Positions 3,007 through 12,306 of a stretch of DNA of 12,306 nucleotides are shown here, in pieces. The notes below the pieces were generated by a model. The model had not been told where the DNA came from. It saw nothing but the letters and a program-made list of their open reading frames with translations, and did not search any database. The DNA is from Dehalococcoidales bacterium (GTDB lineage Bacteria; Chloroflexota; Dehalococcoidia; Dehalococcoidales; UBA2162), in the NCBI GenBank assembly GCA_020343555.1, contig CP070800.1, positions 1,586,931-1,599,236 of the forward strand, read 5' to 3'. Position numbers and translations under genes: made by a program. Each line of letters opens with the position of its first letter. Position 1 is the first letter of the stretch.

Positions 3007-3049
3007 TTTTAGAACACCACGATTGGTTAATTAGAACCACGTTCTAAAA
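3007..3049. terminator. Inverted repeat between convergent genes, possible bidirectional terminator
   Basis: TTTTAGAAC at 3007-3015 is perfectly complementary to GTTCTAAAA at 3041-3049. A smaller dyad, GGTT (3025-3028) and AACC (3035-3038), sits inside. The structure spans the stop of the minus-strand MFS gene and lies 57 nt after the plus-strand hydrolase stop, where a shared terminator would be expected. The arms are A/T-rich with no clear following T-run beyond the arm ends, so efficiency is doubtful. Confidence 0.4.
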
Positions 3050-4232
3050 GAGTTTTACGGCGTATCTTTGCCAGCACTATCGTGAGTCCAAACCCGAAAA
3101 TGCATGAAATCGCAATAGTTACAAAACCACTTAAAAAAGAGCCGGAAATGTCTTTGAGTATACCAAGTAGGTAGGTAAAAGAAAATGCGCCTAGATTGGC
3201 GAACAGGTTGCCGAAACCGGTGGAGGTTGCGGTAGTTCTCTCTCCGAGTACATCCACAGGAATGGAAAATAATGGTCCGAAATATGCCTGAATAAAGATA
3301 GAGTTAATTATTATTATTGTGACGAGTAAAATAATGTTATCCACCAGTACCATCGATACCGTTGTCATCGTTAGGACCAATAAAGACGTAGCTATAACAG
3401 AGATAGGATTCCTCAGCTTGTCGGAAATATACCCTCCGATTACATTAGAAGGAGCAATAAAAGCAGCCTGCACAGCGATAATAACACCTGCAAACTGTAA
3501 TGATAATCCCTTTTCTTCAACAAGAAGCGTAGGCAGCCAGAAAGTAATCCCCATCATTACCGCAAGCCTGACGTATTGTATCCCGCCGCATACCCACATC
3601 AACCGATGTTTAAACAGCTGCAAAACTTCCCACAGGCCAATTTCCTGCGTTGGTTTTTCCTGATACGGTTCTTTACCGAAACGCCATAATACGAGACTTA
3701 GAATAATACCAAGGGGAGGGAAAACCTGAAATGGGAAACGCCAACCGTATTCCGCTACAAGTACCGGACCCGCAATATCAATAATTAGGTTTCCTAAAAA
3801 CCCGCCGATAAGATAGAGTCCCATAGCAGTAGCTCTTCTATCAGGCGAAAACCAGGCAGAAATCAAGCGAATTCCCGGAGCAAACAAAAAAGCGCGAAAC
3901 AAGCCTGACACAGCTTGATTGATAAGAGCTTGCCAGTACTCAGTGACGAAGCCAAATGTCAGTGATAATATCGTCGTTCCCAGTATCCCTATTACGAAGA
4001 GTCTCTTACCACCAAAGCGGTCGGCAAGATAGCCGGCAGGTATCTGCATCAGGGCATAGACCAGAGTAGTGGCTGCAGCAAGTGTACCTCCCTGGGTGAA
4101 AGTTAACGTCAGGTCTTCGCGTATCAAGGGCAGGAACAACGCGATACCGCCGATACTCAATGCCTGAAAACTCTGGCAAATGATAATCAAAGGGACATTG
4201 AATAATTTTTCCCGCCTCGATATTTGTTGCAA
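3027..4232 (-). CDS. Major facilitator superfamily transporter (12 TM)
   Basis: A 401-residue integral membrane protein with hydrophobic segments along its whole length, consistent with 12 transmembrane helices. MFS motif A is clear between TM2 and TM3: GYLADRFGGKR at residues 67-77. A weaker counterpart, GGYISDKL, is in the second half. The family moves small molecules by proton- or ion-coupled transport or exchange; the substrate cannot be read here, though the closest feel is to organic-anion (ACS/NarK-like) carriers. The start is a TTG codon, supported by AGGAG 6 nt upstream on the minus strand (4239-4243). It follows the other MFS gene after 44 nt on the same strand, so the two are probably one operon. 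Its 3' end overlaps the inverted repeat at 3007-3049. Confidence 0.92.
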   Translation of the reverse strand: MQQISRREKLFNVPLIIICQSFQALSIGGIALFLPLIREDLTLTFTQGGTLAAATTLVYALMQIPAGYLADRFGGKRLFVIGILGTTILSLTFGFVTEYWQALINQAVSGLFRAFLFAPGIRLISAWFSPDRRATAMGLYLIGGFLGNLIIDIAGPVLVAEYGWRFPFQVFPPLGIILSLVLWRFGKEPYQEKPTQEIGLWEVLQLFKHRLMWVCGGIQYVRLAVMMGITFWLPTLLVEEKGLSLQFAGVIIAVQAAFIAPSNVIGGYISDKLRNPISVIATSLLVLTMTTVSMVLVDNIILLVTIIIINSIFIQAYFGPLFSIPVDVLGERTTATSTGFGNLFANLGAFSFTYLLGILKDISGSFLSGFVTIAISCIFGFGLTIVLAKIRRKTLLERGSN

Positions 4233-4276: not shown

Positions 4277-5515
4277 TCAGACTTGGTTTTTCAATGGACA
4301 GACCAGAAAAAGCATTATCCCGGCGATGGCATAGCAAAGAACCGATATTAACAAAGCCACATTATAACTTCCGAATGTTTCTAAGACAATGCCCCAGATG
4401 GTTGGTCCCATACCTCCAATTAATCCCCAGGAGAGTGTCAGTATACCAAACGATGAGCCGATGTTCTGTCTTCCAAATAAATCACCAAGGTACGGTGCAA
4501 AAAGGGTACTGGAAAAACCTGCTCCGATACCGAATATGACAGCATAGACTATTAATTGATTAGCTGAATGGATCGTTATGTATCCCATCAACATGACCAG
4601 TGCGGAGAATGACGCTCCAAGGATCATTATTCTCCTTTTTCCGTATTTATCTCCAAGCCAGCCACTTCCGATTCTTGCCAGGATGGAGGGACCGTTAAAA
4701 ACGGTTACAAAAACACCAGCTGCTGCATTTGAACTCCCTAAATCTACTGCCCAGATAACCAGATGTGCTAATATCCCGTTGAAAACGATTCCGATTAAAC
4801 CATAAGCAGCAAATAATAGCCAAAACTGCGGTGTTTTAAGGAAATTGTTGGTTTTCGTCTGTTTACGTAAAACTTCTTGATCAATAACAATATCTGGTGT
4901 TGAATTTATTCCATCAGTATGTTGCCCTATCGATTCCGGAGTGTCCCGAATAATGAAATATGCCAGGAACATGATAGGGATGCCTGTAATAAAAGCCGCG
5001 ACCAAAGAGACCTGTCTCCAGGTATAGATGCTGGATGTTAATGTCAGTAAGGGAATAAATATTGCTGAACCGATAGCGAATGCAGAACTAATGATTCCAC
5101 TTGCTAAGCCAGCTCGTTTTACAAACCACTTTCGTGAAGTAGCTTGTAGTGGCACGAGATGTGTATTACTTACTGCTATTGCCATAATAAGACCGTAATA
5201 GCAATAGAGTTGCCAGAGTGAATTCACCTGGGACAGTAATATCCAACCGACAAGGCAGAAAAAACCCCCGATAAATATCGTTTTCCGACTACCAAGTCGG
5301 TCTGTCATCCAACCAGTTAATATCGATAATATTGAATACGCCCATAAGCTGACGCTTTGAGCTGTACCTATAGTTGATCGTGACCAGGCTAATTCTGATG
5401 AAAGAGCAGGAAAGAAAGCAGTGATGCTGTACCTGCCCATAGGCCCAAGGTTTCCAACTAAAAAGAGTGCAATAAGCACCCACCATCCGTAGAACACATC
5501 TCGGAATTTTCTCAT
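4277..5515 (-). CDS. MFS transporter, OFA-like (oxalate/formate antiporter-like or monocarboxylate carrier)
   Basis: A 412-residue, 12-TM transporter. The N-terminal FYGWWVLIALFL (residues 8-19) is a signature seen in oxalate:formate antiporter/monocarboxylate-porter-like MFS proteins, as are LAWSRSTIG (42-50) and KWFVKRAGLASGI before TM5. Motif A, GWMTDRLGSRK, is at 68-78; its second-half counterpart is GSGWLGDKYGKRR. A hydrophilic loop of about 35 residues separates the two six-helix bundles (around residues 195-225). Carboxylate transport is the family-based guess and is not proven. It is the first gene of a two-transporter unit reading leftwards, divergent from the propeller remnant and selenoprotein. 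The ATG has only a weak Shine-Dalgarno (GAGAG on the minus strand). Confidence 0.92.
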   Translation of the reverse strand: MRKFRDVFYGWWVLIALFLVGNLGPMGRYSITAFFPALSSELAWSRSTIGTAQSVSLWAYSILSILTGWMTDRLGSRKTIFIGGFFCLVGWILLSQVNSLWQLYCYYGLIMAIAVSNTHLVPLQATSRKWFVKRAGLASGIISSAFAIGSAIFIPLLTLTSSIYTWRQVSLVAAFITGIPIMFLAYFIIRDTPESIGQHTDGINSTPDIVIDQEVLRKQTKTNNFLKTPQFWLLFAAYGLIGIVFNGILAHLVIWAVDLGSSNAAAGVFVTVFNGPSILARIGSGWLGDKYGKRRIMILGASFSALVMLMGYITIHSANQLIVYAVIFGIGAGFSSTLFAPYLGDLFGRQNIGSSFGILTLSWGLIGGMGPTIWGIVLETFGSYNVALLISVLCYAIAGIMLFLVCPLKNQV

Positions 5516-5618: not shown

Positions 5619-5650
5619 TTATGAACATAGACTGGATAAGGAGAATAACT

Positions 5651-5896
5651 GTGATTTACGGCAGTGATGATAACAGATATGAGCTGACAGTAAATTGGAC
5701 ACAATTACCACCAGGTTGGGCTTTCTATGATATTAGTTGCTACGATTGGGATTTTTTTGTGAGATCTCATGGTATCCGTATCACTTCTCAAGATGAACTC
5801 ATCTACACGGACGACATGACACACCTTGTCTCAATATACTCTTTAGCATATAATCGTTCATACCGTGAAAGTAAAAAAAGGACTGAAAGAGGATAA
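5651..5896 (+). pseudogene. NHL-type beta-propeller remnant with internal deletion
   Basis: About 81 codons from a GTG with AAGGAG (5638-5643) 7 nt upstream; an in-frame ATG at 5621 lacks a good ribosome binding site. The N-terminus (IYGSDDNRYELTVNW, then LPPGWAFYD) looks like the start of environmental six-bladed NHL-repeat propellers, often labelled peptidyl-alpha-hydroxyglycine lyase-like. In those proteins this start is normally followed by a VAVDSQDRVYVFNRG-type blade. Here the sequence jumps to FVRSHGIRITSQDELIYTDD, resembling the next blade (F-x-x-PHGI...D), and then ends in a charged tail. Full-length relatives have about 300 residues, so this is probably an in-frame deletion plus 3' loss. 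A functional small protein cannot be excluded. It ends 39 nt before the selenoprotein start. Confidence 0.55.
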
Positions 5897-5906
5897 GGAG
5901 AAAGAA

Positions 5907-5939
5907 ATGAACGTTTTGATACTTGGAGGAAGCAGATGA
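5907..5939 (+). CDS. 10-codon mini-ORF (leader peptide or Rossmann-gene stub)
   Basis: ATG at 5907 has a very good AAGGAG (5895-5900) 6 nt upstream and encodes MNVLILGGSR before TGA at 5937-5939. This TGA overlaps the ATG at 5936 of the selenoprotein gene (ATGA), and the mini-ORF contains that gene's GGAGGA site (5925-5930). It could couple translation to the next gene. Its sequence is also just what the first ten residues of a Rossmann-fold epimerase/dehydratase look like, so it may be a deletion scar. Confidence 0.35.
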   Translation: MNVLILGGSR

Positions 5940-7687
5940 CAGAGATATATAAATGTCTCAATCCGGTCGGTATGCAGCCACCCGTGAAACAATCGGCACT
6001 CGCACCGAGACTGGAGACTCTCGATGGAAAAACCATTCACCTGAGTATCTGCGGTGAAATGGATATCTGGGTTCCCCTTGAGAAAAAACTGAAGGCGGAT
6101 TATCCGAATATCAACTTTACAGTAAAGAAAGGTTATACACCAAATCCGATCCCTTTGTCGGAAGAGGAAAGAAAAACTACCGACGGTGTAATACTGGGGG
6201 TTTGCTGGTGACATGGTGCAGTAGAAAGGCAGTTGCCTTATCTGTCTGAACTTGAACGAGGTGGGATTCCTACTGTACTCCTTGGCTATACTGAAGAAAC
6301 AGGAATGGTCAGGAGTGAATCGGTATTACATGGGATTCCCCAATTGCGGTATATCGAAGCTTCACGCAACTCGCTGGGCGGCGTTACAGAAGCCGAAAAA
6401 GTCCTGCCACTGTTACTCGAAGGTCTGACCCGACCATTAACGGAGAAAGAAAAGGAGACCAGTCTCTGGGCGCCTTCCGAACCGAGGATACTTTTCGAGG
6501 GCACCCTCGAAGAAGCCGAGGAGTTCTATAATCAGAGTGTAATTATCCCGGGACTGGGCAATACTCCGTTTTCCCTGTATACGGATGGTCTCCCGGTGGT
6601 TATCCCCACCGAGGAACGCGTGGAAAAAATGCTGAAAGGAACTAGCCATAAACCCGACGAAATCATCACGTATCAGCGTGACATGGAGATGAGAGGTCCG
6701 ATGGGCTTCGGTGTACCCAGGAATAAAGGTGACGTAGTAAAGTTTATGCCTATGGAAAGGGTAGGCACGGTGGAGCAGGTAGCTGTCAATGCCGTGATGG
6801 CTGGCTGTAAACCGGAGTATTTCCCTGTGATACTGGCGATTACCGAGGCGGCAACATGGGGAGGTCGTGGCAACGGCGGAGCCTATATTGTCAGCGGTCC
6901 GATCTACAAAGAAATCGGAATGAACGTAAGTTACGGCAGATTCGGTCCCGGCAATCAGCCGAATAAGACCATAGGTCGTGTCGGCAGCCTTCTGTTACGT
7001 AACCTGGGCGGCTTCAAAGACAGTGTTACCGCTGTTTCCGTAACAACGACGTATAACAGCCCTGTTACCAACGGCGGGTTTATTTTTGCTGAATATGCAG
7101 AGGGATTGCCCGAAGGATGGAAGGGTCTTAACGAGGAGATGGGTTTCGGAAAGGATGAGAGTATTATCATGACCTGTATGCCCGGAGCATGGGGAATCGG
7201 GCAGCAGCATATGCCCGGCGTGTATCGTTCATTACAGAGAACCGGACACGGGGCTATAGCCAGGTTCCTCGATGTCAAGGGTATCCCCGGACCGCACAAT
7301 TATCTTGAATATCTGACCAAAGGTATCTGGGCTACCCGGGAAGGCGGTTTTACTCTTATCCTGGTACCCCAGATGGCCCAGGACCTGTATGATTACGGAT
7401 TCAAGACCAAGGAATCGATATACGAATGGATATGGAAAAAGAGCTTCGAACCACTTCGTGATTACCGTATGCGTGGAATTGGTGACCTGACAACTAATGG
7501 CTGGACGGGAATAGAAAAAACGTCCGGAAAACCATGGAAAGAGTTGCCTGATGATTATATGCTACCGGTTGGTGGAGAAAATCCATTCGACAGCTATTGC
7601 ATCATAGTCTGTGACGGGATGGAGACTGCAGCCGACAGGTTTACCGGCGGTCACGGCCAGGCATACAGCGTGGATGCATGGAGGTAG
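5936..7687 (+). CDS. Predicted selenoprotein: UGSC-like N-terminal domain with Cys-Trp-Sec motif fused to a large C-terminal domain (UGA at 6209-6211 read as Sec)
   Basis: One frame of 583 residues if the TGA at 6209-6211 is decoded as Sec92. The N-terminus (CLNPVG at 7-12, LAPRLETLDGKTI at 22-34) and the segment before the TGA (TDGVILGVCW) match the layout of UGSC-family (seleno)proteins. The frame continues as HGAVERQLPYLSELERGG and then IPTVLL, the expected helix and strand after that site. UGSC proteins have Sec-Gly-Ser-Cys; here the pattern is Cys90-Trp91-Sec92-His, so the partner Cys lies before Sec. Residues ~200-583 form a domain I cannot name, with conserved-looking VNAVMAGCKPEYFP (Cys291), a Gly-rich YGRFGPGNQPN and MPGAWGIGQQHMPG. 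No signal peptide or membrane segment is seen. GGAGGA at 5925-5930 supports the start. A thiol/selenol redox role is inferred. The gene looks richer in G+C than its neighbours. Confidence 0.85.
6219..6244 (+). promoter_or_regulatory. Bacterial SECIS-like stem-loop downstream of the in-frame UGA
   Basis: AAGGC (6226-6230) pairs with GCCUU (6235-6239) around the tetraloop AGUU (6231-6234). A lower stem adds CAG (6219-6221) with CUG (6242-6244), plus A6223-U6241 beside a bulged U6222. The loop begins 19 nt after the UGA and has G as its second base. Bacterial SECIS elements, as I recall the consensus, have a short stem, a small apical loop with G in the first two positions, and a loop 16-37 nt from the UGA. 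All of these are met. The element would recruit SelB with Sec-tRNA. Confidence 0.7.
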
Positions 7688-8113: not shown

Positions 8114-9151
8114 CTACAGCTTTTGGCAAATAGCTTCAACACGTGAGAGCACTTCATCAATATCTGATGAGGATATCTCCTGATGAGTGACCGCTCGAAA
8201 CTGACTTCCACCGCGTGAACCTACTCTAATACCAGCTTCCTTTAGATCGTCAATCAATCTTTTGGGTGATAAATCGGATTCAAGAGAAAACATTACGATA
8301 TTTGTAGGCAGGCTATCCGGATTAGTGTTGATTCCTTTTATACTCTCTAATCCCTTTGCCAGACGTTTTGCATTTATGTGATCTTCTCCCAAACGATCAA
8401 TCATTGTCTCTAAGGCTACTATACCCGCCGCTGCGATTATTCCTGCCTGCCGCATACCGCCACCGAGCATTTTCCGTATTTTACGGGCCTTCTTGATAAA
8501 GTCATTACTCCCACATAGCATTGATCCGACAGGTGCACTTAATCCTTTTGAAAGGCAGAATGATACGGAATCGACACTTTCAGTCAGTAACTGAGTTGGG
8601 ATATTCAGGGCAGTAGCAGCATTAAAAATACGCGCTCCATCCAGGTGTACCTTTATCCCATGGGCGTCAGTCAGTTCGCACACTTTATTTGTGTACACTC
8701 GATCCAACACAGTCCCTCCGCAATGGTTATGAGTGTTTTCCATACAGAGTAGCGTAGTTTTCGGATAATGAATGTTCTCACCACGAACAGTCCGTTCTAT
8801 GTCGTTTAAATCAAAGTGACCGGAACTATCATTCTGGATAGTGTGCATGACTACTCCGCCCAGGGCTGCAGCACCGCCTACCTCGTTCAAAAATATATGC
8901 GAATTGTTACCCACAATTATTTCGTCACCACGAACTGTATGAGTAAGAACTGCAATCAGGTTGCTTTGCGTCCCGGAGGTAGTAAATAAGGCGTCTTCTT
9001 TACCCATCATTTCTGCAGCAGTCGATTCAAGACGGTTTACTGTTGGATCTTCACCATAAACATCGTCACCAACCTTAGCTTCGAACATAGCTTTCCGCAT
9101 TGCCTGTGTTGGATGCGTAACAGTGTCACTTCGCAAATCGATAATTTTCAT
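8114..9151 (-). CDS. ltaE: Low-specificity L-threonine aldolase
   Basis: A 345-residue fold-type I PLP enzyme of normal length that cleaves L-threonine or L-allo-threonine to glycine and acetaldehyde; relatives also act on other beta-hydroxy amino acids such as phenylserine. The N-terminal IDLRSDTVTHPT (4-15) and GDDVYGEDPTVN (28-39) are family hallmarks. TSGTQSN (58-64) binds the PLP phosphate. HLDGARIFNAA (169-179) carries the PLP-ring Asp171. SKGLSAPVGS has the Schiff-base lysine at Lys202. GGGMRQAG follows, with a conserved Arg. It is cytoplasmic and complete, with AGGAAAG just upstream of the ATG on the minus strand. It is a lone gene, divergent from the flavin reductase-like gene across 275 bp, and may supply glycine. 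Confidence 0.94.
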   Translation of the reverse strand: MKIIDLRSDTVTHPTQAMRKAMFEAKVGDDVYGEDPTVNRLESTAAEMMGKEDALFTTSGTQSNLIAVLTHTVRGDEIIVGNNSHIFLNEVGGAAALGGVVMHTIQNDSSGHFDLNDIERTVRGENIHYPKTTLLCMENTHNHCGGTVLDRVYTNKVCELTDAHGIKVHLDGARIFNAATALNIPTQLLTESVDSVSFCLSKGLSAPVGSMLCGSNDFIKKARKIRKMLGGGMRQAGIIAAAGIVALETMIDRLGEDHINAKRLAKGLESIKGINTNPDSLPTNIVMFSLESDLSPKRLIDDLKEAGIRVGSRGGSQFRAVTHQEISSSDIDEVLSRVEAICQKL

Positions 9152-9223
9152 TTCTTTCTTTCCTAGAATAGTTTTATCCGGTTATAGACTATTATTCTAT
9201 CTGGGCATGATGAAAATCAACCC

Positions 9224-9254
9224 GAGAAGCAGGCTTCTCTGAAGGCGTTTTTTT
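9224..9254 (+). terminator. Hairpin GAGAAGC/GCTTCTC followed by T7, orphan terminator-like element
   Basis: GAGAAGC (9224-9230) and GCTTCTC (9233-9239) form a perfect dyad with a practical 6-bp stem and 4-nt loop. A run of seven T (9248-9254) follows after 8 nt, longer than in classical intrinsic terminators. It lies between divergent genes, upstream of the plus-strand gene at 9427 with no plus-strand gene just before it. A role in attenuation or insulation is possible but unproven. Confidence 0.3.
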
Positions 9255-9426
9255 GATTGTGAGCAGCAAAACCTGAACCGTATAGCTTTACTTGGATTAT
9301 CCTGCCAATTAAAATAAAACACGACATTGTTTAAGGTGAAGTTAGAGTCTTAGATTATTGACAGTTCGGGAACTTTAATATTTGCAGTGTGTACCACGAG
9401 TTGGGATAACACAGGAGGATTTGATT

Positions 9427-9999
9427 ATGGGCAAGATAGAGATAGAACCTTCAAGATTGATGTACCCACGACCTACTCTGCTTGTAGGAGCGAATGTAAA
9501 CGGTAAAGCTAATTTTATGGCAGTGGGCGGGGGTGGTGTTGCTAATGCGGATCCCCCGATGATTGCTGTTCCCATAAGGCACCACCAGTACACGCTGGAA
9601 GGAATAAAGCAAAATTCTACGTTTTCAGTAAATATTCCTTCTTCGGATCTGGTCAAAGAAACCGATTATTGTGGGATTGTTTCAGGTCGTACAGCAGATA
9701 AAGTAAAAGATTGCGGTTTTAAGATATTTTACGGTAATTTAGAGAATGCTCCTTTAATAGAACAGTGTCCTATTAACCTTGAGTTAAAAGTGGTGCATAA
9801 CCTTAATTTGGGAACTCATGCCTTCGTGGTTGGTGAAGTTAAAGGCTCTTTTATTACAGAAGACTGTATGTCAGATAATAAACCGGATGTAAATAAGATG
9901 AAGCCGATGATTTTCAATCTGGAATCGGGAGTGTATTTATCATTTGGTGAGATTATTGCGAAAGCTTTCAGTATAGGGAGAGAATTGATGACCGAATAA
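9427..9999 (+). CDS. Flavin reductase-like FMN-binding protein (flavoredoxin-type)
   Basis: A 190-residue protein of the flavin reductase-like (FMN-binding split-barrel) family, the usual size. Typical features are the early PRPTLLVGANVNGKANFMAV strand pair, a following PPMIAVPIRHHQYTLEGI segment, STFSVNIPSSDLV, and YCGIVSGRTADKV, which matches the C-G-x-x-SGR-x-x-DK motif of these proteins. It probably binds FMN and uses NAD(P)H or passes electrons, as in flavoredoxins of anaerobes; its partner is unknown. I chose ATG 9427 because AGGAGG (9413-9418) lies 8 nt upstream; the frame also opens at 9382 without such a site. The 3' end is followed by 146 bp before the next gene. Confidence 0.9.
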   Translation: MGKIEIEPSRLMYPRPTLLVGANVNGKANFMAVGGGGVANADPPMIAVPIRHHQYTLEGIKQNSTFSVNIPSSDLVKETDYCGIVSGRTADKVKDCGFKIFYGNLENAPLIEQCPINLELKVVHNLNLGTHAFVVGEVKGSFITEDCMSDNKPDVNKMKPMIFNLESGVYLSFGEIIAKAFSIGRELMTE

Positions 10000-10087
10000 T
10001 AGCACTTCTCATTATTGTTTAAGGGATTTTAAAGGATCAGATTTGTACTATGCTGGTTGCTACCACGTATTCATCCCGATGATATAT

Positions 10088-10117
10088 TTGAAATATGATT
10101 AGAGTATAGAATATACA
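10088..10117 (+). promoter_or_regulatory. Candidate sigma70-type promoter upstream of the ATC-hydrolase-like gene
   Basis: TTGAAA (10088-10093) and TATACA (10112-10117) are 18 nt apart, each matching the consensus at four of six positions. They lie 28 nt or more before the TTG start at 10146. The surrounding A/T-rich DNA makes chance matches likely. Confidence 0.3.
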
Positions 10118-10145
10118 CAACAAGTCTGGAATTTGGAGGAAGGAA

Positions 10146-10646
10146 TTGGGAGAGATAAAAAATACGCCATCAATAATCGATAAGCCGATTATTAATGTGA
10201 ACCGAAATCAGATAGAACATCGGGCGACCTGGATGGGACTCAGCTACAAAGCTGCCTGGAAGTCTGGTGCAGATGGAGAAAATATACTGCGGGTGGCGGT
10301 AGCTCAAACCGGTTGCCTTCATGGTGAAAAAATTAGACAGAAGCTTTCAGAGTCGATCGAACTTGATAAGTTTGCCGATGCGTTCCTGGATTCTGTTGGG
10401 ATAGAGACCTTCGAGATGGAATTTATGAAAAAGACCGCTGATGAACTGGAGATTCATTTCCACTATTGCCCTTTGGTTACAGCCTGGTTGAGAGCGGGAA
10501 TACCGGAAGAGGATATCCCGACTTTATGCGATATTGCTATGGACGGAGACAGGAATATTGCCAGCACGGTAGGCGTGGAATTCGAGCTCTCTGATACCAT
10601 TGCAGCAGGCGATGAGGTCTGTAAATTAAGGTTTTACAGGTACTAA
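10146..10646 (+). CDS. L-2-amino-thiazoline-4-carboxylic acid hydrolase-like protein
   Basis: A 166-residue protein resembling the L-2-amino-thiazoline-4-carboxylic acid (ATC) hydrolase family, whose founding member opens the thiazoline ring to S-carbamoyl-cysteine in a cysteine-forming pathway. Diagnostic sequence is HFHYCPLVTAWLRAGIPEED (about 103-122), followed by LCDIAMDGDRNIA, a conserved Cys/Asp-rich block. The N-terminal ~75 residues are variable, with an early RATWMGLSYKAAWK helix. Most genomic members have unknown substrates, so the name marks the family rather than a proven activity. The start is TTG, supported by GGAGG (10135-10139) 6 nt upstream. It is 54 bp before the metallo-beta-lactamase-fold gene on the same strand, so they may work together. 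Confidence 0.83.
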   Translation: MGEIKNTPSIIDKPIINVNRNQIEHRATWMGLSYKAAWKSGADGENILRVAVAQTGCLHGEKIRQKLSESIELDKFADAFLDSVGIETFEMEFMKKTADELEIHFHYCPLVTAWLRAGIPEEDIPTLCDIAMDGDRNIASTVGVEFELSDTIAAGDEVCKLRFYRY

Positions 10647-10700
10647 GAATCTTGAAAGTGAACAGGTTGGTTTGAATAATAGCAGGACTACGAGATAGCA

Positions 10701-11630
10701 GTGGCAGATATCAGTAACGTAGCTGAAAACATATACATGATAGATAACCGATTGTTTTCAATCCCGAAGTGGGGGAGCGTCTATCTTCTCGATGAAACAG
10801 AAAAAGCAATTGTCGAAAGCGGTCCCACAACGTCGGTCGACGCTGTCCTGGAAGGCTTAGCTCAACTCGGTAGAGAACCAGAAGATATTTCTTATTTGAT
10901 CGTTACCCATATTCACCTTGATCATGCCGGTGGGGCCGGGTCGTTGATGAAACTATTACCTAATGCCAGGCTGGTCGTTCATCATAGAGGTGCTCGACAC
11001 ATGGTGGATCCTTCCAGGCTGGTAGCCGGCGCTGTCTCAGCGCGTGGAAAAGATGTCTCTGAGATGCATGGGGAAGTGATACCGGTTGATAATGACCGTC
11101 TACTACCAGTTAGTGAGGGGGATTTTCTTACCCTCAGTCATAGTCAAATCTTGACATTTCTTGATACTCCTGGCCATGCCCCTCACGAACTTTGCATTCA
11201 CGAAACCCGGAACGATGGTGTTTTTACCGGAGATGCGTTGGCGCTTTACATTCCCGATTATGATATTGTCTTACCATATCATCCGCCGCCACAATTTAAT
11301 CTAAAAATGTGTCTGGAGACTCTGGATAGGCTGGAATATCTATCCCCTGATAAAATTTACTATTCCCATTTCGGAGTCAGTGATAACACAAGGGAAAACA
11401 TAGCTCGTGCGAGGAAAATGCTGCTGGAATGGGATGATATTGTTAGAGAAGCCATAAAAAACGACGTTTTAACCGAAGTCAAAACGAAGCTTATAGATCG
11501 TGCCGTATTGGAAATCAACCCAATAAAAAACATTCCGGACATGGCACCGCTATATTCATACCTTATTGAGAGAAGTTTCCCAACGAGCACTGAAGGCCAC
11601 ATAGCATATTACAAAGAGTTATATAAATAG
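10701..11630 (+). CDS. Metallo-beta-lactamase-fold hydrolase (glyoxalase II/lactonase-like)
   Basis: A 309-residue cytoplasmic MBL-fold protein. The metal motif THIHLDHAGG gives His70-x-His72-x-Asp74-His75. His159 in TPGHAPH, Asp178 in TGDAL and His223 in YYSHFG supply the remaining ligands of a dinuclear centre. These are all the ligands expected for COG0491-like enzymes that hydrolyse thioesters, lactones or similar bonds. A C-terminal helical extension (about 225-309) follows, as in glyoxalase II-like and related proteins. The start is a GTG with only a weak upstream GAG; the next in-frame ATG (10738) would remove part of the first strand, so GTG is preferred. The substrate is unknown. The closeness to the ATC-hydrolase-like gene suggests a shared hydrolytic pathway (inference). 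Confidence 0.9.
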   Translation: MADISNVAENIYMIDNRLFSIPKWGSVYLLDETEKAIVESGPTTSVDAVLEGLAQLGREPEDISYLIVTHIHLDHAGGAGSLMKLLPNARLVVHHRGARHMVDPSRLVAGAVSARGKDVSEMHGEVIPVDNDRLLPVSEGDFLTLSHSQILTFLDTPGHAPHELCIHETRNDGVFTGDALALYIPDYDIVLPYHPPPQFNLKMCLETLDRLEYLSPDKIYYSHFGVSDNTRENIARARKMLLEWDDIVREAIKNDVLTEVKTKLIDRAVLEINPIKNIPDMAPLYSYLIERSFPTSTEGHIAYYKELYK

Positions 11631-11726
11631 ATGAAAAAGATATTGATTGGTTGATATTGTAGTATATTAATCAAATTTTGAAATATGTAATAACCGATAA
11701 AGACATGAATGAAAGAGAGAGTATAT

Positions 11727-12306
11727 ATGGAGAATAGAGAACTCATCGATATGTACCGTACCATGCTAACCATCCGTCGTTTTGAGGAAAGGATTTCCAG
11801 GGAATTTTCTGACGGCAATATCAGGGGATACGTCCACACGTATATCGGAGAAGAAGCCGTTGCCACCGGCGTGTGCGCTAATCTACTGCCGACTGATAGC
11901 ATCGTCAGCCATCACCGTGGGCATGGTCACTGTATTGCCAAGGGAGCCGATATCAATAAGATGATGGCTGAAATATATGGAAAGAAGACGGGCTATTGCA
12001 AGGGAAAGGGTGGTTCAATGCATATAGCCGATTTCAGTATAGGTATGCTTGGAGCCAACGGGATTGTTGGTGCCGGTCTCCCCATTGCTCTCGGAGTTGC
12101 CATGGCAGCTCAGTTGGAGGAGAAGAATCGAGTAGCAGTAGTCTTTTTTGGTGATGGTGCATGTCACGAAGGCACGTTTCATGAAACTATGAATTTGGCT
12201 TCGGTATGGAAGCTGCCCCTAATCTTTGTTTGAGAAAATAATCTATAATCAGCTATTACAAAATAAAGTACCACAATTGCTATTTATGAAATCTACAAAA
12301 GAGCAG
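11727..12306 (+). pseudogene. Thiamine-diphosphate dehydrogenase E1 alpha subunit, interrupted by three in-frame stops
   Basis: The first 168 codons encode the N-terminal part of a pyruvate/acetoin-type E1 alpha subunit (family length about 320-360), which decarboxylates a 2-oxoacid or acetoin with TPP. Seen are RRFEERISREF (17-27), the GYVHTYIGEEA block, SHHRGHGHCIAKG (61-73), KGKGGSMHIAD (92-102) and GDGACHEGTFHE (142-153). A TGA at 12231-12233 then stops the frame. The next codons continue the homology: ENNL, TAA (12246-12248), SAITK, TAA (12264-12266), STTIAIYEIYKRA to the window edge. The GDG-x26-NN TPP motif is thus split by the first stop. Stops fall where Cys, Tyr and probably Gln or Tyr usually stand. 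Gene decay or sequence error is likely. The start at 11727 has AAAGAGAGA upstream; ATG 11709 is a less likely alternative. Confidence 0.75.

Follow-up and report, generated by a model that had tools for sequence, protein, structure and literature searches.

Selenoproteins of the UGSC family, represented by the profile models PF24696 and NF041046, and a fusion of such a selenoprotein to a conserved domain of unknown nature, termed UGSC/Unknown_1, have been in print since the GOS survey of 2008 (PMC2398784), the available text of which mentions neither an expansion of UGSC paralogues nor a relation to GrdB. UGSC-motif selenoproteins are further described for Geodermatophilaceae together with a tRNA-Sec of anticodon CUA (PMC5330540), which implies that the family also uses TAG as a Sec codon there.

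A second point of comparison is provided by the Sec-containing reductase subunit GrdB and its relatives (PF07355). In glycine, sarcosine and betaine reductase, GrdB occurs in the form of substrate-specific paralogues. Such paralogues are also exemplified by the farACEB system, which combines a GrdB/GrdE-type pair with an MFS antiporter of its own and for which cleavage of fluoroacetate has been proposed from transcripts and comparison (PMC10838667).

The window analysed here is a stretch of 12,306 nucleotides from a Dehalococcoidales bacterium (contig CP070800.1), in which a gene related to both groups appears as two open reading frames.

Structure of the locus

As confirmed by direct reading, the frame opening at ATG 5936 meets one single in-frame TGA at 6209-6211 and stays open up to the TAG at 7685-7687, comprising 583 residues with U92. 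The standard code splits 5936-7687 into a 91-aa ORF and a 484-aa ORF starting from TTG 6233, which are exactly the two proteins that ordinary annotation had been predicted to report. The following features are referred to below:

5925..5929, + strand: GGAGG, Shine-Dalgarno-like, 6 nt upstream of the ATG (read from the sequence)
5936..6208, + strand: residues 1-91 of the probable selenoprotein, first part of the UGSC-like domain; a 91-aa ORF in standard annotation
6209..6211, + strand: TGA, very probably selenocysteine 92; TGA in 67 of 70 readable relatives, Cys in cultured homologues
6215..6252, + strand: SECIS-like hairpin, core stem 6226-6230/6235-6239, loop AGUU 6231-6234
6233..6235, + strand: TTG, Leu100, part of the putative SECIS loop and its closing base; under the standard code, the point from which the 484-aa ORF is read
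5936..6475, + strand: UGSC-like domain at the N terminus (residues 1-180), modelled as Rossmann/flavodoxin-like
6476..7684, + strand: C-terminal domain, residues 181-583, with neither a Pfam match nor a clear PDB fold
7685..7687, + strand: TAG stop (read from the sequence)
4277..5515, - strand: MFS transporter, possible partner; nearest NCBIfam models below their cut-offs
3027..4232, - strand: second MFS transporter

A ten-codon ORF (5907-5939, MNVLILGGSR) that is ended by TGA overlaps the ATG of the long frame and contains its GGAGG, and a 91-aa ORF located just upstream (5621-5896) is matched by no model of Pfam or NCBIfam at E<=0.01.

Conservation of the TGA codon

Twelve loci were obtained by tblastn, and TGA is found in all 11 that cover the site, which excludes a chance in-frame TGA. 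A wider set of 100 phmmer rows gave 78 distinct relatives, the window gene included, after removal of contained duplicates; seven fragments and one full-length row gapped at the site are unreadable there, and the remaining 70 have TGA (67), TCA (2) or CTT (1) and in no case TAA or TAG. Searches of the three whole genomes G001 (isolate W403, with the closest homologue L001), G002 (isolate NC_groundwater_632, with L002) and G003 (isolate ARS79, with L008) returned 41, 24 and 17 matches, respectively, some being pieces of one gene, and 30, 23 and 13 genes with TGA in addition to the window gene. Nearly every full-length match in these genomes contains exactly one TGA, and ribosomal protein L2 is single-copy in each of them, which makes gross mixtures unlikely. 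Elsewhere in the class TGA is present in 39 of 40 rows, 21 of those rows coming from regions picked for a reported TGA. With the identical TGA in dozens of distinct genes, a sequencing error at 6209-6211 is ruled out.

L001 is 96% identical to the window protein and 88% identical at the nucleotide level, with dN/dS values of 0.014/0.81 before and 0.020/0.65 after the TGA. The claim that the codons directly following the TGA already encode protein is borne out by codons 93-99, where three synonymous and no non-synonymous changes separate the two genes. The gene thus has its in-frame TGA at a single conserved position, flanked on both sides by sequence under coding selection, as expected of a bacterial selenoprotein.

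Some deviating copies were also seen. One locus of G001 (L080, contig C41) consists of three tandem fused homologues without TGA, two of which have Ser (TCA) at the site while the third is gapped, and two short copies (L085, L091), whose frames end with TAA before or near the site, are probably decayed fragments.

Cysteine homologues and selenocysteine machinery

Homologues with Cys at the Sec site, another trait expected of bacterial selenoproteins, were found mainly among cultured organisms. A tblastn search of plasmids yielded 24 records, and of the eight regions read seven have TGC or TGT at the site (L152-L156, L158, L159) and one has Met (L157). The Cys lies in one open frame in Neorhizobium galegae HAMBI 540 (GVGHCSTC) and Variovorax boronicumulans (GCGACGSC), giving two continuous Cys homologues (L154 and L156), and in adjacent separate genes in the haloarchaea Haloterrigena, Halalkalicoccus and Halorientalis as well as in Variovorax SRS16. 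A second Neorhizobium copy (VafX2, L152), also with Cys, is split over two frames, as opposed to the single frame of the HAMBI 540 copy (L156). The homologue of Sporomusa is fused and has Met at the site, and two metagenomic proteins have Cys (P0122) and Ser (P0123). Homologues spanning both halves and having Sec or Cys at position 92, which had been named as a check, therefore do exist, with TGA in most relatives and Cys in the cultured ones.

selA, selB, selD and tRNA-Sec are all present in the three genomes G001-G003, a set of relatives that does not include the window's own genome; the tRNA-Sec scores above the cut-off in each and has the anticodon TCA according to ARAGORN. Their selD genes (L101-L103) contain one in-frame TGA each, so SelD is itself likely to be a selenoprotein in these organisms. 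Since 29 of 219 long stop-to-stop frames (frames, not all genes) are ended by TGA in the relatives, TGA remains a stop codon there.

With the conserved TGA, homologues covering both halves and the SECIS-like hairpin described below, the original prediction of one 583-residue selenoprotein with Sec92 is upheld, and the locus 5936-7687 very probably encodes such a protein.

Relation to UGSC proteins and to GrdB

PF24696 matches the joined protein only (E 1.8e-4, 22.1 bits, cut-off 25, residues 7-142) and neither half alone, NF041046 gives 16.3 bits (cut-off 125), and 56 of 60 aligned proteins, the window protein included, match PF24696 at E<=0.01 (best 4.8e-22). The TGA does occupy the place where UGSC-family proteins carry Sec or Cys, as had been proposed; membership in the family as curated does not follow, as the protein stays below both cut-offs and its motif, WUHGA, lacks the UxxC, the +3 residue being Ala in 51 of 52 window-type proteins. 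By comparison, the N-terminal region can be shown to represent a homologous yet divergent UGSC-like domain that is devoid of UxxC and is joined to a further domain of ~400 residues. This is probably the same architecture as that of UGSC/Unknown_1, matched here to its published description only (PMC2398784). In the structural model Sec92 is placed at the start of a helix following a strand in the Rossmann- or flavodoxin-like N-terminal domain. The C-terminal domain contains an invariant cysteine, Cys291 (52/52 window-type proteins); other genomes encode this domain on its own, in the vicinity of a UGSC gene.

According to profile comparison by hhalign, the UGSC domain and the Sec domain of GrdB from glycine reductase are remote homologues (E 9.3e-8 to 9.7e-10, probability 94-96), with the Sec sites aligned. 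The match persists when the Sec and +3 columns are masked (E 2.3e-7); reversed controls reach E 0.017-0.12 and the best of 79 unrelated single proteins E 0.021. Window-type rows alone give a weaker match (E 3.1e-5, probability 73), and for single GrdB-type sequences E varies between 6.3e-7 and 0.026, one of 23 being no better than the best control. GrdB differs from the window protein, however, in that the latter has no Pfam GRDB match (PF07355) at E<=0.01, lacks the UxxCxxC motif and carries a C-terminal domain that is not GrdE-like: against GrdE (PF09338 proteins) an E of 0.55 was obtained as compared to 0.42 for the reversed control, and the fused domain thus lends no support to a pyruvoyl chemistry like that of glycine reductase. 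farACEB shares with the locus a GrdB-type Sec paralogue accompanied by a dedicated MFS transporter, but differs in having a classical GrdB plus GrdE and another partner domain (PMC10838667).

Genomes of the class also harbour short GRDB-like genes (L171-L183), many with an in-frame TGA in a U-x-x-C motif (such as UPHC and UPDC), which form a second TGA-bearing family.

Expansion of the family

In the class to which G001 belongs, 130 of 393 sampled genomes match the alignment of the family (A1) with at most three candidates scored per genome. Among 21 regions chosen for having no TGA in their match (20 regions and L151), 18 contain a UGSC gene with TGA and nearby, as a separate frame, a gene for the C domain.

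The largest number of copies was seen in a genome of 5.0 Mb with one SelA (G030). Of 208 candidates for PF24696, 150 were scored, all of which pass the cut-off and 146 of which contain TGA; reading all 150 places (525,277 bases) gave 162 UGSC rows with the site codons TGA (156), TCC (2), TCT, TCA and GGC (one each) and one gap. TGA hence accounts for 156 of 161 readable sites, all in distinct contexts, and the five others encode Ser or Gly and in no case Cys. The nearest other copy is at the median 71% identical over 160 residues surrounding the site, with two rows at 90% or more and none at 98%. The motifs UGSC (65), UGAC (33), UGGC (31) and UGTC (20) predominate among the 156. When the TGA is read through, 106 of these genes are in frame with the C domain and 50 are not, and some of the 106 may be two genes. 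For comparison, the largest selenoproteomes in a 2026 review comprise 57 and 63 genes (PMC13188914), and another published count is 46 per genome. The window gene accordingly is a member of a large, poorly annotated paralogous family with 13 to 156 TGA genes per genome in four genomes.

Neighbouring genes and possible function

The nearer MFS transporter (4277..5515) scores 168.8 bits with the L-lactate model (cut-off 320) and 131.9 bits with the oxalate/formate antiport family (cut-off 374.85). Downstream, positions 8117-12233 encode a GntG-like aldolase, a flavin reductase, an ATC hydrolase, an MBL-fold protein and a dehydrogenase E1 alpha subunit, the last being cut by the window end; after the homologue L001 a glyoxalase gene follows instead.

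Among the 77 relatives other than the window gene, whose flanks are often short, 18 have an SBP_bac_5-like gene within 1.5 kb, while the other 59 lack an SBP over that distance in the sequence examined; with 12 occurrences, SBP_bac_5 is the commonest family among 79 neighbours. The G030 regions contain 62 SBP5 matches, a count with no genome-wide control behind it, and no TrxR-, TTT- or TAXI-like match nor one resembling the window's MFS transporter passed the filter there. The cultured relatives are accompanied by genes for CoA transferases, acyl-CoA dehydrogenases and aldehyde dehydrogenases, by TRAP, tripartite-tricarboxylate (TTT), TAXI and MFS transporters and, in the case of three Cys relatives, by a gene for a TrxR-like flavoprotein (TIGR01292, 159.5, 231.1 and 380.1 bits), one of the three scoring above the family cut-off of 343.45.

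These observations are compatible with the tentative proposal, to which we assign somewhat less than even weight, that the protein works like the Sec subunit of glycine or proline reductase (GrdB/PrdB), that is, as a substrate-specific selenium-dependent reductase. The C-terminal domain would hold the substrate, Sec92 would attack it with reductive cleavage of a C-X bond, and the selenium intermediate would be re-reduced by a thiol or a flavoprotein, the latter being suggested by the TrxR-like genes near the three cultured Cys relatives. The paralogues would differ in the imported substrate that they serve, which would fit the SBP_bac_5, tripartite-tricarboxylate, TRAP and MFS genes near some of them. 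By analogy, farACEB may be regarded as a published parallel for such a mode of action (PMC10838667). Taken as a whole, a single 583-residue selenoprotein, possibly acting in this manner, is the explanation that we consider likely to be the best.

Alternatively, the selenoprotein might be a general thiol/disulfide or peroxide redox protein, which appears rather unlikely though it deserves serious attention. A UxxC is present in the canonical UGSC relatives, as seen in G030, the TrxR-like genes mentioned above would suit such a role, and a Trx-like fold was surmised for UGSC by the authors of the 2008 survey (PMC2398784). However, the +3 Cys is missing in the window-type proteins, and the best structural rows are Rossmann- or flavodoxin-like, the missing Trx match by itself proving nothing. 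Moreover, the paralogues with TGA, some of them near transporters, would in their number exceed any housekeeping need, and the relation of the UGSC domain to GrdB is a further point against this reading.

It is improbable that Sec92 binds a metal or an organometal compound for detoxification or transport, a role published as a proposal for a different Sec operon, SAO. Where no resolving Cys lies nearby, a Sec could be a ligand, with the invariant Cys291 as a second one, but the neighbours of the cultured relatives look carbon-catabolic, and the relation to GrdB speaks against this function as well.

The SECIS-like hairpin and TTG 6233

Hairpins were sought 13-37 nt after the UGA, in accordance with the spacing limits of SECIS elements, and were required to have a stem of at least 4 bp and a G in the first two loop bases. 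A G in the apical loop is a rule for bacterial SECIS elements (PMC1088965). Of 67 genes, 43 have a hairpin of -5 kcal/mol or better, compared with an average of 18% and at most 38% when 86 other positions of these genes are scanned, and 62 have one of -3 kcal/mol or better, so that 24 genes miss the former and five the latter threshold. The mean folding z at the TGA (-1.11) is the lowest among 11 offsets. The window hairpin reaches -14.2 kcal/mol (z -2.12), with six of 200 shuffles being equally good. The same scan is positive for 82% of the G030 genes versus a mean of 27% (maximum 48%) at 25 control offsets, and 10 of 13 distant paralogues have a hairpin of different sequence passing -5 kcal/mol. 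A hairpin soon after the TGA with a G in its apical loop, as expected of a bacterial selenoprotein gene, is thus found in the window and in many of its relatives.

In the 54 window-type genes, the loop codons of Gln99 (CAG, 54/54) and Leu100 (TTG, 52/52 where Leu is encoded) form the sole codon-invariant columns among 109 conserved ones (L, P, G, A, V, T, S, R, Q), TTG making up only 12.7% of the Leu codons of these genes. Columns 19 and 30 covary (Fisher p 2e-9) with a compensatory exchange of AU and GC and 17 both-sided changes. The covariation score of 0.253 was reached by none of 500 shuffles; sliding the 3' partners by one column, however, lowers it only slightly, to 0.242, although the share of paired cells then drops from 88.1 to 59.6%. 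In the variety of its pair types the alignment does not stand out (179 of 500 shuffles), and with RNAalifold, restricted to ungapped columns, the full set of 67 genes yielded no structure and a subset of 50 two pairs.

The same region bears on the view, to which we give almost no credence, that two separate proteins are made, one of 91 aa ending at the TGA and one of 484 aa restarting at TTG 6233. The TTG is conserved in 52 of 54 genes, the codon being GCT in the other two. The statement that it lacks a proper ribosome binding site needs some qualification, as AAAGG lies 3 nt upstream in the window and 17 of the 54 genes read GGAGG-CAG-TTG; UGSC and C domain are, in addition, separate genes in other genomes. 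However, the two relatives with GCT retain the hairpin, codons 93-99 change only synonymously, the break between separate genes falls after the UGSC domain and not inside it, the Cys homologues L154 and L156 are continuous, and in 12 of 67 genes the next in-frame ATG, GTG or TTG lies 12 to 55 codons past the TGA. GGAGG-CAG-TTG with its short spacing is a Shine-Dalgarno look-alike, and the conserved TTG, which is better explained by its location, most likely forms part of the SECIS hairpin. A pseudogene or a genome-wide reassignment of TGA to another amino acid, for which the short TAA-ended copies might be cited, can be dismissed just as firmly in view of a dN/dS of about 0.02-0.03, the single TGA in nearly all full-length matches of G001-G003 and the use of TGA as a stop in 29 of 219 long frames of the relatives and 102 of 306 (frames, not all genes) in the G030 regions.

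The reading as one selenoprotein would also account for the database entries. In a set of 5.8 billion proteins 5139 matches were obtained, the best 120 of which all have lengths of 466-496 aa and a query coverage of 80-84%; lengths and coverage are those that entries beginning after the TGA would have; none of 91 candidates matches residues 1-110 below E 0.001. The position of TTG 6233 inside the putative SECIS would explain such shortened entries.

Implications

In the literature searched, no report was found of the fused subtype without UxxC, of the expansion of the family or of its relation to GrdB. Uncultured Dehalococcoidia may, in a scenario that we regard as plausible and short of probable, possess a giant and poorly annotated family of reductases that depend on Sec, differ from one another in the substrate that is imported for them and combine a Sec domain of GrdB-like type with a new partner domain. 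Dehalococcoides is known for its arrays of reductive dehalogenases, and if true, this family would be their selenium counterpart. The 156 TGA genes of a single family in G030 stand against 63 genes in the largest selenoproteome of the 2026 review (PMC13188914), and provided that they are real selenoproteins, very large selenium-dependent proteomes would exist in uncultured relatives of Dehalococcoidia, which are easily overlooked since the window-type proteins are probably listed in databases with starts inside their own SECIS. The relation to GrdB, finally, offers a concrete mechanistic hypothesis for the UGSC family.
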